The translations under genes and the position numbers were made by a program. Below the pieces are notes generated by a model, which saw only the letters and a program-made list of their open reading frames with translations, was not told the origin of the DNA and ran no database searches. Of a DNA stretch of 64,000 nucleotides, positions 36,733 to 43,708 are shown in pieces. The first letter of the stretch is position 1; each line of letters begins with the position of its first letter. The stretch is from an uncultured bacterium (GTDB taxonomy: Bacteria > Verrucomicrobiota > Lentisphaeria > Victivallales > UBA1829), in contig CADCMR010000003.1 in NCBI GenBank assembly GCA_902802585.1, forward strand, positions 106,394 to 170,393. Reading direction: 5' to 3'.

Positions 36733-39390
36733 TCAGGCCTTGACCGCCTCGCCCTTGTCTTCCTTCGTCGCGTCTTCCGGACCTTCGGAGGAGATGTTGC
36801 GCTCTTCCTTATGCCAGTAGGCGGTGATCATGGGGGAGACGAAGATGGAGGAGTAGCAGCCGGCGATGTTGCCGATCAGGATGACCGCCACGAAGTCGCG
36901 GATGCCGTCGCCGCCGAAGATCAGCTGGCAGATCAGGACCAGCATGACGCAGACGGACGTCAGAATAGTACGGGCGAGCGTCTGGTTCAGGCTCAGGTCG
37001 ACGATCTGGAAGTAGCTGAGTCCCTTGCGCGTGGCGAGGTTCTCGCGCTGGCGGTCGAAGATCACGATGGTGTCGTTGACCGAATAGCCGATCAGGGTCA
37101 GCAGCGAAGCCACCACCTGCAGCGAGATCTGTCCGCCGAAGAGCAGGTACAGACCCGTCGCCACGATCACGTCGTGGATCAGGGCGATGTTCGCCGCGAT
37201 GGAGTACGAGAACTGGAAGCGGATGACCATGTAGATGATCATGCCGATCATGGCGCAGATGAGCGCCTTGATGGCGGATTTGGTGAACGCCGCGCCGATC
37301 AGGGCGCCGAGCGTGGACTCGGAGAGCTTTGTGAGCTTCACATCGGGATACGCCTCGTCGAGCTTCTGAATCAGCGTGTCGGCGGTCTCCTGCGAAACCG
37401 TGCCGGTGCCGCGGTCGCGCACGACGAGCTCCAGCACGCTCCTGCCCTCGACGTTGTCTTCGTCGGTGATCTTCTTGTAAGTCGCCTTGGCGTCGTAGCC
37501 TTCCTTCTCCAGGACCTTTTCGATTTCGCCGGACGGAATCTGCGCCATGGTCTTGTCTTTCGGGACGTAGCTGACGATCAGCTGGGTGCCGCCCGTGAAG
37601 TCGATGCTGAGGGCGTCGCGACCGCGCACGAAAACCGTAACAAGCGAAAGGAGGACCAGGCAGGCGGAAATGCCGAACCCGACGAAACGGAACTTGATGA
37701 AGTCGAAGTGCGGATGCGGCAGGAACATCATCATGTTGATCTTCTTGATCTTCAGCGGGAGCATCAGGAAGAACTCGAAGAGCAGGCGGGACAGGAAGAC
37801 CGCCGAGAACATGGTCGTGAAAATGCCGATGACCAGCGTCATGGCGAATCCCTTGATCGCGCCGGTGCCCTGCCAGTACAGGATGGCGCCCGTGAAGAGC
37901 GTCGTCACGTTCGAGTCGAAAATGGCGGAGAAGGCGCGGTCGAAACCGGTCTTAACCGCGAAGTCGAGCGACTTGCCCGCGTCCTGTTCCTCGCGGATGC
38001 GTTCGTAGATCAGCACGTTGGCGTCGACCGCCATGCCGAGGGTCAGGATGATGCCGGCGATGCCGGGGAGCGTCAGGGTCACGTCGAACGCCGCCATGGC
38101 GCCAAGCAGCACGCCCGTGTTGACAAGGAGCGAGATGTTCGCCACGAGACCGGCGAGGCGGTAGTAGATGAGCATGAAAATCATCACGAGCGCCGTGCCG
38201 AGGATGCCGCTGTAGATGCTCTTGCGGATGGTCTCCTGACCGACCGTGGCGTCGATGTCGGAACGGGACGCGATCGTGATCACGAAGGGCAGGCTGCCGC
38301 TCTTCAGGGCGTCGGAAACGCTCTTGGCCTCGTCCTGGGAGAAGGAGCCGGTGATGCGCGCCGTGCCGCCGTCGATCTTGGAGAGCAGGGTCGGCGCGGA
38401 GTAGAGCTGACCGTCGAGCACGATGGCGAGCCGTTCGCCGACGTGCTTGCCCGTGACTTCGCCGAACTGCACAGTGCCCGCCGTGTTGAAGAACAGCAGG
38501 ATCTCGCGCTGACCGAACTCGTTCATGGTCACGTAGGAGTCCTTGATGTTGTCGCCTTCCATCTGGACGATCGTTTCGACCAGGGTGTAGTCCGTGTACA
38601 GGTTGTTGTGGTCGTCGCGGCGTTCTTCGGCAAGGAATTCCGCCTCGGACGGGGTGTCGGGATAGGAATCCGGATCGCCGCCCGCCGCGAGGTACGCCAT
38701 AAACTTCGGCACCTCGACGTCGTTGTTCGGGTGGACGAGGCGGAATTCAAGTTTCGCGGAGCGGAGGATCAGCTTTTCGAGGTTGGCGCGGTCGTCGGAG
38801 TTGACGGACGGGACACGCACGGAGACGAAATCCTGACCGGCGGGGGAGATTTCCGTTTCGAAGTAGTTCTGCGCCTCCAGGCGCTTGCGGAGCGTCTCAA
38901 TGGCGTTGTCGCGGAACGAATCGAACTGCGTGCTGTCCATTTCCTTGTCGGCCTGCAGGTGCAGGAGGAATTCGGCGCCGCCGTTGAGGTCGATACCGAG
39001 ACGGATCGCGCCGGAGGCGTTCTTGCGGACCAGGGAGATCACGTCGCCGTTGTTCTGGAGCTTCTGCGCCTTCGCGATGTTCGGCTTCACAAAGTGGACG
39101 AGGTCGACGGAATACGCCGCGGAACCGTCCTCGGACGGCATCTTGATCTCGCGCGCCGCGGCTTCCAGGGCGGTGGAGGGATACAGGTATTTGATCTTGT
39201 CTTCCTGCTGCAGGGCTTTCGCTCGCTCGACCACCTTCTGCACGGTTGGGTCGGCGGGATCGGAGAGCAGTTTGTTGAACGTCTCGTAGAAATCGCTCTG
39301 CTTCAGCGGGAACATCGCCGCGACGAAGACGGCGATCACGGCAAGCGCGAAGACGCAGTAAATGGCGAATGTGCTCTTGCTGTTCTTCAT
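36733..39390 (-). CDS. secDF: protein translocase subunit SecDF (fused)
   Basis: 885 residues, a SecD-SecF fusion that uses the proton gradient to help late steps of Sec export. One N-terminal helix (residues 8-27), then the large periplasmic P1 region with 'IRLGIDLNGGAEFLLHLQ'. SecD helices 2-6 hold 'ITGSFSQDEAKSVSDALKSGSLPF' and 'GMAVDANVLIYERIREEQDAGKSLDFAVKTGFDRAF'. The SecF half starts near residue 570 with 'SIDFTGGTQLIVSYV' and ends with 'YSVNDTIVIFDRQRENL'. Overlaps yajC by 4 bases; ended by a clear terminator. Confidence 0.95.
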   Translation of the reverse strand: MKNSKSTFAIYCVFALAVIAVFVAAMFPLKQSDFYETFNKLLSDPADPTVQKVVERAKALQQEDKIKYLYPSTALEAAAREIKMPSEDGSAAYSVDLVHFVKPNIAKAQKLQNNGDVISLVRKNASGAIRLGIDLNGGAEFLLHLQADKEMDSTQFDSFRDNAIETLRKRLEAQNYFETEISPAGQDFVSVRVPSVNSDDRANLEKLILRSAKLEFRLVHPNNDVEVPKFMAYLAAGGDPDSYPDTPSEAEFLAEERRDDHNNLYTDYTLVETIVQMEGDNIKDSYVTMNEFGQREILLFFNTAGTVQFGEVTGKHVGERLAIVLDGQLYSAPTLLSKIDGGTARITGSFSQDEAKSVSDALKSGSLPFVITIASRSDIDATVGQETIRKSIYSGILGTALVMIFMLIYYRLAGLVANISLLVNTGVLLGAMAAFDVTLTLPGIAGIILTLGMAVDANVLIYERIREEQDAGKSLDFAVKTGFDRAFSAIFDSNVTTLFTGAILYWQGTGAIKGFAMTLVIGIFTTMFSAVFLSRLLFEFFLMLPLKIKKINMMMFLPHPHFDFIKFRFVGFGISACLVLLSLVTVFVRGRDALSIDFTGGTQLIVSYVPKDKTMAQIPSGEIEKVLEKEGYDAKATYKKITDEDNVEGRSVLELVVRDRGTGTVSQETADTLIQKLDEAYPDVKLTKLSESTLGALIGAAFTKSAIKALICAMIGMIIYMVIRFQFSYSIAANIALIHDVIVATGLYLLFGGQISLQVVASLLTLIGYSVNDTIVIFDRQRENLATRKGLSYFQIVDLSLNQTLARTILTSVCVMLVLICQLIFGGDGIRDFVAVILIGNIAGCYSSIFVSPMITAYWHKEERNISSEGPEDATKEDKGEAVKA

Positions 39391-39833
39391 TTCTTCGTCA
39401 CCTCGGCTTTCGTGTCGGCGGGGGCGTCAGCGGCGGGCTGGATGACCTGCGCGACGGCGGAACGGGAAATGGCGATCTGGACGTTGTTCGCGACTTTCAG
39501 CAGGAACTGGTCCTTCTGGACTTCGGCGATCTCGCCGAGGATGCCGCCGCTGGTCATGATCTTCGTGCCCTTGCGGATCGAGTTCATCATCTCTTCGCGT
39601 TTCTTCTTTTCCTTGCTGCTGGTGCGCATGGATATCGCGATCATCACGCCGATCAGGATGATGAACGGGATCATCATCATGCCGGAGGACGGCGGAGGAG
39701 CCTGCTGCTGTCCGGCGTCGGACGCGGGTGTGCCGGACTGCGTGGTGGTGGTTTCCGCGGCGGGAGCGGCGGCAGTCGCGGTCACGGAACCGTCGGCGGC
39801 CTGCGCGAAAAAGACAAAGGAAGTGTTTGCCAT
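39387..39833 (-). CDS. yajC: preprotein translocase subunit YajC
   Basis: 148 residues. Single-span accessory protein of SecDF. The membrane helix is about residues 52-68 ('MMMIPFIILIGVMIAISM') followed by 'RTSSKEKKKREEMMNSIRKGTKIMTSGGILGEIAEVQKDQFLLKVANNVQIAISRSAVAQV', the standard YajC core. It has a long N-terminal part of about 50 residues rich in Ala, Thr, Gln and Pro, which would be periplasmic; most homologues lack this. Own promoter; cotranscribed with secDF. Confidence 0.92.
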   Translation of the reverse strand: MANTSFVFFAQAADGSVTATAAAPAAETTTTQSGTPASDAGQQQAPPPSSGMMMIPFIILIGVMIAISMRTSSKEKKKREEMMNSIRKGTKIMTSGGILGEIAEVQKDQFLLKVANNVQIAISRSAVAQVIQPAADAPADTKAEVTKK

Positions 39834-40070: not shown

Positions 40071-40121
40071 CCCAAGTTTCAGTTAAAAGGAACTTGTTTT
40101 AACTGAAACTTGCGTGTATGC
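40071..40121. repeat. palindromic repeat, copy 1
   Basis: 51 bp identical to the copy at 40217. It contains perfect inverted arms CAAGTTTCAGTTAAAA (40073-40088) and TTTTAACTGAAACTTG (40097-40112) around an 8-base loop GGAACTTG, then TGCGTGTATGC-like sequence outside the hairpin. After it both copies continue with (A/G)CGGGAA. A small palindromic element (MITE- or REP-like) is the likely nature. Confidence 0.85.
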
Positions 40122-40216
40122 ACGGGAAACACGATTCCTGTCGGTTCCCACCTTCTGCCATGGAAACTCAAAAAGGAGGGGAATCTACGCACTGTATCGG
40201 AAATCACAGGTTATCC

Positions 40217-40267
40217 CCCAAGTTTCAGTTAAAAGGAACTTGTTTTAACTGAAACTTGCGTGTATGC
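40217..40267. repeat. palindromic repeat, copy 2
   Basis: Identical to the copy at 40071 over 51 bp and in the same orientation, 146 bp further on. Hairpin arms at 40219-40234 and 40243-40258. No flanking direct duplication was noticed. Confidence 0.85.
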
Positions 40268-40513
40268 GCGGGAACGGACTGGAAGAAACTGGAAGACATA
40301 GTACGGGACAACGGAAAATAGCCCTTTGAAAGCGGTACATCTATATGGCGGGGGCGGATTCGATTCTATCGCATCCACATTCTCTTCAAAGTAAATCGTT
40401 GGAACGGAATATGTTTTCTTTTTTTCCGGCTTCCCCCCTTCACAGCCTGAAAAAAACACCGGAACCAAGAGCTTTTGTGCTGAATTCTTCGAAATGCTCC
40501 AGGTCTTCCGGGA
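40229..40513 (-). pseudogene. possible remnant of a lipoprotein-like reading frame
   Basis: Directly after the TGA of the chagasin-like gene the same frame stays open for 94 more codons. It reads '...SAQKLLVPVFFSGCEGGKPEKKKTYSVPT', which looks like a lipoprotein signal end (FFSGC) and a mature N-terminus. There is no ATG, only TTG at 40468, and no ribosome site. The 3' end runs into hairpin copy 2. It may be a decayed gene, or chance. Confidence 0.25.
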
Positions 40514-41485: not shown

Positions 41486-43708
41486 TTACTTCTTTAATGC
41501 GGATTTCGGCGCCAGTACAACCGCGCTGAGCCATGGAAGTCGAAGCGTGATGAACTGATTCTGCCCGTGGTATTCACCGGGCAACGACACCATTTTCTGT
41601 CCATTCAGCAGACCGGTCCCGCCGTATTCCTCGCGGTCGGTGTTGAACACCTCGACCCATTCGCCGGGGAGCGGGACGCCGATGTTGAAATTGTCGCGCA
41701 CGACCGGAGTCAGGTTCAGGATCACGACGAGCGGCGACTTGCGCTTCTTGTCCCAGCGGATGAAGGAGTAGACTGACTGCTTGAAATCGCCCGCGTCCAG
41801 CCACTGGAAGCCGGCGGGCGTGAAATCGTCCTCCCACAGGGCAGGCTGCCCAAGGTAGAACCTGTTCAGTTCGGCAACCATGTGATGCACAGAATCATGC
41901 GCCGGGTATTTGAGCAGGAGCCAGTCGACCGACTGGTTGTTGCAGTTCCACTCGATCACCTGCGCGAACTCGCCGCCCATGAAGATCAGTTTTTTGCCGG
42001 GATGCGTTGCCATCAGGACGTACATCGCGCGCAGATTGGCGAACTTCTGCACGTAGTCGCCGGACATGCGGCCGAAGAGGGAGAGCTTCCCGTGGACGAC
42101 TTCGTCGTGGCTGAACGGCAGGATGAAATTCTCGGAGAACGCGTAGCAGATGGAGAACGCGAGCTGGCCGTGATGATAGCTGCGGTAGATCGGGTCCAGC
42201 TTGAAATAGTCGAGCGTGTCGTGCATCCAGCCCATGTTCCACTTGAACGTGAATCCGAGACCGCCGAGGTAGATCGGACGGGAGACGCCAGGCCAGGACG
42301 TGGACTCCTCGGCGATCATGGAGATGCCGGGGAAGAGTTTGTGCGCCAGCTCGTTCAGGTGGCGGATGAACGCAATCGCCTCAAGGTTCTCGCAGCCGCC
42401 GAACTCGTTCGGGATCCATTCTCCGTCGTTGCGCGAGTAGTTGAGGTAAAGCATGGAGGCGACGGCGTCCACGCGGAGCCCGTCCGCATGGTACTGGTCA
42501 AGCCAGAAAAGCGCACTGCCGATCAGGAACTGACGCACCTCGTTGCGCCCGAAATTGAAAATGTACGTGCCCCAGTCCTTCTGTTCGCCCTTGCGCGGGT
42601 CGGCGTGTTCGTACAGCGCCGTGCCGTCGAACCGTCCAAGCGAGAAGGTGTCGCGCGGGAAATGGGCGGGAACCCAGTCCAGGAATACGCCGATGCCGTG
42701 TTCGTGCATGTAGTTCACGAACCAGGCAAAATCCTCCGGCAAACCGTAGCGCGCGGTCGGCGCGTAGAATCCGGTCACCTGATAGCCCCACGACTGGTCC
42801 AGCGGATGCTCCATCACGGGCAGCAGCTCCACATGCGTATAGCCCATCTTCTGAACGTAATCTGCAAGCGCGACGGCGAGTTCGCGGTAGTTGTTGAACG
42901 TCTCCTTCACCTCGGGCAACTTCAGCCCGGGACCGCCCCACGTACCGAGGTGCACCTCGTAGATGTTCATGGGACTTTCGATCGGATTCGTCGCGGCGCG
43001 TTTCTTCATCCAGGCGCCGTCAGTCCAGCGGAACTGCTCCGCCTGCGGGATGATGCCGGCGTTGTTCGGGCGCAGCTCGGTTCTCTGCGCATACGGGTCA
43101 AGCTTCAGGACAACGGAACCGTCCGAACCTTTCACCTCGAATTTGTACACGTCGCCCGGCTTGAGACCGGGAATGAACAGCTCCCAGATGCCCGAAAGCC
43201 CCAGCATGCGCATCGGATGCCGCCGTCCGTCCCAGCAGTTGAAGTCGCCGACAACGGAAACGCGCTGTGCGTTCGGAGCCCATACCGCGAACGAGACACC
43301 CTCGACTCCGCCGAGATTCCGGACATGCGCCCCCATCACGTCGTAGACACGATGGTGTTCACCCTGGTTGAAGAGATAGATATCCATCTCGCCGAGCGTG
43401 GGCAGGAAACAGTACGGATCGGCGGATGTGAACGTGCTGTCCGCATATCTTTTTTCGATTTTATACGCAAACAGGTTCTTCCTTTTCGGGAAGAAACAGA
43501 AAAAGATTCCCTGCTCGTTTTGTCTTATCATCGAATAACGGTTTTTTCCGTCGATGACTGTCACGGATTCCGCCGCGGGATCGTACACGCGGACCATGAC
43601 CCCGCCTGATGCCTGGTGCATGCCGAGGTATTCGTGCGGATTGCGGCAGGATCCTTCAAGTATTTCGTTCATGAGCAAGTTTTCCTGCGAATCGGGAATC
43701 ATTTTCAT
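41486..43708 (-). CDS. glgB: 1,4-alpha-glucan branching enzyme
   Basis: 740 residues, full length GH13. Forms alpha-1,6 branches in glycogen. N-terminal CBM48-like units with 'FAVWAPNAQRVSVVGDFNCWDGRRHPM'. Catalytic barrel: 'YTHVELLPVMEHPLDQSWGYQVTGFYAPTARYG', the nucleophile in 'GLRVDAVASMLYLNYSRNDGEWIPNEFGG', the acid in 'ISMIAEESTSWPGVSRP' and 'ILPFSHDEVVHGKLS'. All are intact. No other glg gene is present. GGAGG lies upstream of the start. Last gene of the SIS-uppS-cdsA-glgB run. Confidence 0.95.
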   Translation of the reverse strand: MKMIPDSQENLLMNEILEGSCRNPHEYLGMHQASGGVMVRVYDPAAESVTVIDGKNRYSMIRQNEQGIFFCFFPKRKNLFAYKIEKRYADSTFTSADPYCFLPTLGEMDIYLFNQGEHHRVYDVMGAHVRNLGGVEGVSFAVWAPNAQRVSVVGDFNCWDGRRHPMRMLGLSGIWELFIPGLKPGDVYKFEVKGSDGSVVLKLDPYAQRTELRPNNAGIIPQAEQFRWTDGAWMKKRAATNPIESPMNIYEVHLGTWGGPGLKLPEVKETFNNYRELAVALADYVQKMGYTHVELLPVMEHPLDQSWGYQVTGFYAPTARYGLPEDFAWFVNYMHEHGIGVFLDWVPAHFPRDTFSLGRFDGTALYEHADPRKGEQKDWGTYIFNFGRNEVRQFLIGSALFWLDQYHADGLRVDAVASMLYLNYSRNDGEWIPNEFGGCENLEAIAFIRHLNELAHKLFPGISMIAEESTSWPGVSRPIYLGGLGFTFKWNMGWMHDTLDYFKLDPIYRSYHHGQLAFSICYAFSENFILPFSHDEVVHGKLSLFGRMSGDYVQKFANLRAMYVLMATHPGKKLIFMGGEFAQVIEWNCNNQSVDWLLLKYPAHDSVHHMVAELNRFYLGQPALWEDDFTPAGFQWLDAGDFKQSVYSFIRWDKKRKSPLVVILNLTPVVRDNFNIGVPLPGEWVEVFNTDREEYGGTGLLNGQKMVSLPGEYHGQNQFITLRLPWLSAVVLAPKSALKK

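Follow-up and report, generated by a model that had tools for sequence, protein, structure and literature searches.

Paired hairpins near yajC in an uncultured Lentisphaeria bacterium belong to a genus-specific palindrome family dispersed between genes

We found that two hairpins in the 64,000-nucleotide stretch of DNA analyzed here (the window) are units of a palindrome family that is specific to the genus and scattered among intergenic regions. It is apparently a palindrome family of rumen Lentisphaeria not yet described; the literature, searched in part, gave no account of such repeats in Lentisphaerae or Victivallales.

The repeat unit and its setting

The first-pass annotation reported two direct repeats identical over 51 bp, each with a perfect 16-bp stem and an 8-nt loop. 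The first 51 bp are indeed identical and both copies form that hairpin (40073-40088 with 40097-40112, and 40219-40234 with 40243-40258). If anything the observation was understated: the repeat continues for 7 bp past the 51 noted, giving 58-bp copies at 40071-40128 and 40217-40274 that are identical at 57 of 58 positions. The distance of 146 bp given for them is correct from start to start but not as a gap, which is 88 bp between the 58-bp copies. Each unit combines a hairpin of 40 nt, its 16-bp stem closed by the 8-nt loop GGAACTTG, with a 12-bp alternating pyrimidine-purine tract, the hairpin being followed by CGTGTATGC(A/G)CGGGAA. The single difference between the two units, 40122 A vs. 40268 G, falls inside the 4-bp stem of a second hairpin that the tract can form. 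The array occupies the gap between yajC and a gene for an Inhibitor_I42 protein, with glgB beyond. The features are as follows.

36733..39390, minus strand: secDF fusion gene, adjoining yajC (Pfam SecD_SecF_C)
39387..39833, minus strand: yajC, a conserved array anchor (Pfam YajC, E 1.3e-20); also the array neighbor in loci L039, L080, L083 and L102
40073..40112, plus strand: hairpin of unit 1, perfect 16-bp stem, loop GGAACTTG; covariance-model match E 1.5e-20
40113..40129, plus strand: tract of unit 1, 12-nt alternating pyrimidine-purine CGTGTATGCACG (second, 4-bp hairpin) plus GGGAA
40129..40216, no strand: spacer between units, unconserved between species (five orthologous gaps aligned)
40219..40258, plus strand: hairpin of unit 2, identical to that of unit 1; covariance-model match E 2.2e-20
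40259..40275, plus strand: tract of unit 2, 12-nt alternating CGTGTATGCGCG plus GGGAA
40514..41317, minus strand: gene for a two-domain chagasin-type (Inhibitor_I42) protein, flanking the array (domain matches)
41486..43708, minus strand: glgB, the second conserved array anchor (Pfam GlgB_N, CBM_48)

The Inhibitor_I42 gene adjoins the array in the window but not in L039, L080, L083 and L102, where glgB stands in its place.

Folded as RNA, the 231-nt region is more stable than its shuffles (z -5.5; 0 of 200 shuffles as good), and each unit folded as single-stranded DNA scores z -5.2 to -7.5 against shuffles on either strand. On the plus strand each window unit is predicted to fold as two adjacent hairpins.

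Size and distribution of the family

The earlier annotation proposed counting the hairpin arm across the genome, and took a total of only two copies, with no RNA product, as the outcome that would reduce the pair to a local event. Across the 2.61 Mb of the window's own draft genome, in which the window lies at C3:106394-170393, the count came to 8 hairpins, spread over 5 places, with none for a reversed control pattern; the two-copy case is false, and the family is dispersed. A covariance model built from 83 units yielded 16 both-strand matches in the same genome.

Among the matches listed, 12 of the 13 genomes of the genus carry the family, and 15 of the 137 genomes of the order, namely the same 12 and three outside the genus, each of which has a single weak match (E between 4e-4 and 9e-3). 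The only genus genome without a model match among those listed, G006, is remote within the genus: its YajC is 47% identical to that of the window, vs. 78% for G008. No palindrome was found near yajC of G006 in about 300 bp upstream. Near yajC of G016 and G020 there was nothing family-like, G020 having an AT-rich 18-nt inverted repeat there.

Carrier records in a collection of named sequences are labeled Lentisphaeria, Lentisphaerae or Victivallales bacterium, several of them with "Rumen" in the label, and there are also "uncultured bacterium" RUG isolates. An arm-pattern scan of that collection gave at least 115 stretches, of which 80 were used, 43 being taken as genus by title and 37 set aside. 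Together with five viral matches the latter make 42 pattern loci set aside as non-genus, and 41 of these, including all five viral ones, lack the alternating tract. Phage and plasmid collections gave one and two partial matches with E values as high as 1, each spanning less than 80% of the unit.

Structure and covariation

We analyzed 165 distinct units, 142 of the main group and 23 from the species G008 (this count leaves out two places matched by the model, C62:9097 and C108:174). Units were filtered by pairing (12.5 of 14) and by similarity to four consensus stems, and oriented by the alternating tract. In the main group (142 units) conserved sequence is largely confined to a stretch from about -17 to +16 relative to the hairpin; in G008 it extends further. 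The outer stem is CAAGTTTCAG in most species and CAAGGTAC in G008.

Across the 83 units of the model 98.9% of main-stem cells are paired, and 7 of the 16 pairs have changed on both sides. Main stem and second hairpin taken together as a two-helix structure exceeded all 500 shuffles on all five measures. Departures from main-stem pairing (165 distinct units, 15 pairs each) comprised 12 G-T, 6 A-C and 7 others; they are few in part because the units had been pre-filtered for pairing, and the G-T and A-C counts give no clear preference for one strand, as would be sought for RNA.

Over 163 distinct tracts, alternation in the first 12 nt is 0.91-0.99 at each of 11 steps and drops to 0.46 at the step that follows, values somewhat inflated because orientation was assigned partly by the tract itself; insertions shift its phase in some units. 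Of 152 distinct tracts, 125 can fold into a second hairpin with 4 bp or more, compared with an average of 46 after shuffling; the departures in this hairpin on the forward strand number 81 G-T vs. 31 A-C. Possible forms of the tract are Z-DNA and a small hairpin, indistinguishable here. Two tracts (L060 2320-2356 and L103 786-823) have expanded to about 36 nt with the alternation largely kept.

The loop tends to resemble the outer arm, with a mean longest match of 4.4 vs. 3.1 for shuffled loops in 82 distinct hairpins; in the window GGAACTTG matches the outer 3′ arm GAAACTTG at 7 of 8 positions. This likeness prompted the idea of an arm-loop pseudoknot, dropped by reasoning, as no connecting nucleotides would be left. 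A CsrA sponge, for which the GGA of the loop would serve, was rejected because GGA is not kept between units, whose loops include GAGGTTTG, GTAGTTTG, CAAGGTAC and others.

Arrays, neighboring genes and chromosomal setting

Arrays have one to four units and are intergenic: across 48 loci no array sits within a called gene, and three run up to 29 bp into the end of one. Neighboring units share orientation in 77 of 77 cases, at a median spacing of 188 bp (smallest 128), although some of these spacings may skip a copy, units with identical core and 25-nt flanks having been merged. Relative to genes both unit orientations occur; in the co-directional parsed cases at yajC-glgB (8) and fba (6) orientation is constant within each place. 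In co-directional gaps the array often begins about 55-130 bp past the upstream stop codon. The 21 array gaps on four contigs comprise 14 co-directional, 5 divergent and 2 convergent ones, against 70:45:29 for other gaps of at least 200 bp; there is no clear preference, and thus a gene-linked function is not visible. An apparent preference for the 5′ sides of genes (32:13, orthologues counted separately) vanished against background gaps.

A paralogous protein family (10 sequences, the one that was scanned having a Sel1 repeat) is a recurrent array neighbor, at L036, L042, L075, L105, L108, L113 and L114, with two copies each in L075, L108 and L113.

G011 has about 23 hairpins (one decayed; among the matches listed), and 19 of them are on a single 133-kb contig of its 2.8-Mb genome (C7, L217-L223). 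Contig C3 of the window's own genome has long blocks in common with it. Gene order breaks at arrays in 5 of 9 cases when G011 C7 is compared with G004, but in 0 of 10 when own C3 is compared with G004; we take the association of breakpoints with arrays as a lead, not a result, and claim no significance for it. Sites linked to the origin were considered and rejected: DnaA was matched in 12 genomes, 11 of which carry the family, and in each of the 12 the contig with dnaA has no array among the matches listed, contigs being short in several.

Conserved places, gain and loss

Many arrays recur at corresponding places from one species to the next. Nine of the 12 carriers (G000, G001, G004, G005, G007, G008, G009, G010 and G012) have an intact hairpin at yajC-glgB. 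No array was seen there in G002 and G003. The G011 unit at this place (L221 9079-9136; G011:C7:89.1 kb) has broken stem pairing and an intact tract, CGCGCATGCGCG, so constraint at the place is not absolute. Alignment of five yajC gaps found the hairpin nearly unchanged and most of the gap unalignable, with a block beside yajC kept. This block, which adjoins the start codon, looks like the yajC promoter; the array lies upstream of it.

Other places common to several species are fba-RNase H, GntR-CYTH (the second of which we take to be a CYTH protein) and a trmB-like methyltransferase gene. Stem subtypes tend to track place: at the methyltransferase gene the inner stem has TGTC in three genomes (G003, G004, G009) and AGTC in G010, while the units of G007 are mixed. 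G011 has no array at this place.

Two comparisons of arrays with one and with two hairpins (L225 with G004_C8, and L251 with G011_C7) gave the same picture. Both flank alignments enter the one hairpin: to its left the single-hairpin array continues like the flank of the longer array's first hairpin, to its right like that of the second. In these two comparisons units have been gained or lost by hairpin-to-hairpin recombination; recombination or slippage between hairpins would give such junctions. The first reading of the window had offered recent copying or constraint as alternatives, and both are seen: constraint in the compensatory changes of the stem and in hairpins nearly unchanged within mostly unalignable gaps, copying in the gain and loss of units. 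At three places compared with array-free relatives the gaps have been replaced, and neither a clean insertion boundary nor a target duplication was visible by eye.

A species with another stem

G008 combines an old place bearing a new stem with places absent in its relatives. The outer stem is CAAGGTAC in 22 of its 23 parsed units and CAAGATAC in the remaining one, and in 12 of the 23 the loop is an exact copy of CAAGGTAC. Its yajC-glgB place is split between two contigs, with hairpins of the G008 stem at both contig ends. This is the only G008 place shown to be common to other species on both flanks; one further place matches an array place of G011 on one flank only. Of the places absent in relatives, one corresponds in both G007 and G011 to an array-free gap of about 105-113 bp between the same gene neighbors, and a second corresponds in G010 to such a gap of about 50 bp.

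In L175 1500-1740 (G008:C222) three tandem degenerate units lie downstream of a hairpin; they have the flank and a CACGTATGCGCGCGAG-like tract but no hairpin, which looks like deletion of the palindrome.

Related repeat systems

Going by their general descriptions, the neisserial NIME/dRS3 and pneumococcal BOX elements appear nearest to the family in layout. NIME, like the family, are arrays between genes in which short inverted repeats are separated by DNA that varies, while dRS3 itself is a 20-bp inverted repeat unrelated in sequence and host. BOX elements are likewise intergenic and hairpin-forming with a variable number of internal units, and differ in their modular A/B/C structure. The matS, parS and Noc sites are dispersed and enriched in part of the chromosome, which may be compared with the clustering on the G011 contig; they are, however, short single palindromes rather than arrays of long hairpins, and no cognate protein was found for the family.

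The term REP-like, proposed for the pair at first, holds in kind but not by the definition of REP. In the portion of PMC3733652 drawn on here, REP and BIME are short dispersed intergenic palindromes with stem and loop variants, large clusters being mostly tandem units with flanking DNA; REPs carry GTAG/CGTC tags, have stems of 5-13 or 8-9 bp and occur predominantly as head-head dimers (PMC3733652, Table 1). As far as that portion describes them, the family resembles REP/BIME in being short, intergenic, palindromic and dispersed and in having stem and loop variants; it differs in its 16-bp stem, absence of a tag, exclusively head-to-tail arrangement, total of 8 hairpins in the window's own genome and alternating tract. 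By inspection of the 83-unit alignment the tag GTAG/CGTC is absent, the stems ending mostly in C(A/T)AG...CT(T/A)G followed by CGYG. The palindromes are intergenic and dispersed as those of REPs are, but inverted (head-head or tail-tail) dimers are replaced by direct pairs (77 of 77 neighbors in the same orientation), and the own genome has no Y1 match. Since tag, dimer and RAYT features are lacking, the family is REP-like in form and is not a REP. REPINs, described as RAYT-associated in the part of PMC3116915 used here, share with the family a long, intergenic, dispersed hairpin; unlike them, the family occurs in a genus of which only 4 of 13 genomes have any Y1_Tnp match.

Discussion

We tentatively favor, at somewhat short of an even chance, a REP/NIME-like palindrome family that works at the level of DNA and is probably recognized by a predicted trans-acting factor. 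The places kept, and pairing kept amid decayed surroundings, point to selection or active homogenization. The stem of G008 points to a trans-acting reader or to a replaced master copy, and suggests that the cell reads or copies the hairpin; we infer from it that a cell factor recognizes the unit. In the mechanism that we propose the palindrome would act as DNA, whether as a cruciform, a single-strand hairpin or an inverted site. The factor, for which a protein of chromosomal DNA binding or of recombination is the likeliest candidate, would read the outer stem (CAAGTTTCAG, or CAAGGTAC in G008), and a change in its specificity could have set the G008 stem both at the old yajC-glgB place and at places empty in relatives. 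Slippage or unequal recombination would make arrays grow and shrink, and template switching between the arms may help the palindromes to stay perfect; quasi-palindrome correction by template switching occurs in other bacteria.

A real possibility, if a somewhat smaller one, is a non-autonomous mobile element, MITE- or REPIN-like, with a helper that is not Y1/RAYT or has been lost; the G008 stem would then be that of a new master copy. Places gained and lost do speak for some mobility, as a slow mobile element would give. Copies are dispersed and genus-restricted, G008 has a different stem throughout, and arrays are missing between the same neighbors in relatives (two G008 places, one vs. G007 and G011 and one vs. 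G010, and the reverse in G011). Several places, however, keep the array across species although the intergenic DNA is mostly unalignable; the empty sites compared are replaced gaps in which neither clean insertion nor target duplication was visible by eye; and the five viral pattern matches lack the tract. A search for a matching RAYT transposase, as first suggested, was limited to Y1_Tnp (PF01797) and returned none in the window's own genome (92.9% complete) and matches in 4 of the 13 genus genomes, which are incomplete; only the G012 match approaches a whole domain. The mobile-element idea of the first-pass annotation keeps in its favor the two G008 places where relatives have no array; a clean insertion site was not found, nor, with Y1_Tnp as the family searched, a helper. 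The G012 match (G012:C9:17833-18189, L171) spans positions 2-121 of the 121 of the Y1_Tnp domain, and G012 is a carrier genome.

Unlikely, in our estimate, is a dedicated site system, in which two-hairpin arrays would be DNA sites for a predicted genus-specific protein that organizes or recombines part of the chromosome. This reading draws on the kept places, the clustering in G011, the arrays at 5 of 9 order breaks between G011 C7 and G004 (own C3 gave 0 of 10) and a site sequence that in G008 runs throughout the parsed units.

A role as RNA structure, the unit forming two adjacent hairpins in small RNAs or in cis leader or trailer elements, seems less likely still. The covarying stem and the two adjacent plus-strand hairpins would suit it, and the excess of G-T over A-C in the second hairpin fits a structured forward strand. 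Against it, the main-group units are little conserved outside about -17 to +16, so that a promoter or terminator common to them was not seen; units occur in both orientations relative to genes and in all gene arrangements; and the yajC array is upstream of the promoter-like block. The window has no Rfam match at gathering thresholds, sub-threshold matches only. The lack of a conserved promoter, the mixed orientation and the absence of a clear strand bias in the main stem together argue against an RNA gene, and the earlier suggestion of RNA-structure sites has weak support.

Very improbable are transcription terminators or stabilizers of mRNA 3′ ends, a role for which the frequent start of arrays about 55-130 bp past an upstream stop codon in co-directional gaps would speak. 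The stem is AT-rich and has no U-run at its base, orientation relative to the upstream gene goes both ways, and 5 of the 21 array gaps on four contigs separate divergent genes, where no gene ends. A terminator scan did call the minus-strand stem terminator-like, with tail GGTGGATTTT and 4 GC pairs of 16; the plus-strand stem is followed by CGYGTATGCGCG, and a GC-rich stem with a U-run is not found. A mere tandem duplication at this one site, with nothing wider behind it, to which the near-identity of window copies 146 bp apart and the gain and loss of units in arrays might have pointed, is refuted by the 8 hairpins at 5 places of the own genome and by matches in 12 of 13 genus genomes (among the matches listed).

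The lineage around Victivallales therewith has a new dispersed palindrome family, most carriers of which have no Y1/RAYT match. Partly conserved places, combined with one species that has another stem, make it testable whether repeats of this kind live as parasites or owe their persistence to a host protein. For the preferred reading, in which a factor recognizes the palindrome as DNA, the 58-bp unit offers a defined bait for the hypothetical reader protein.
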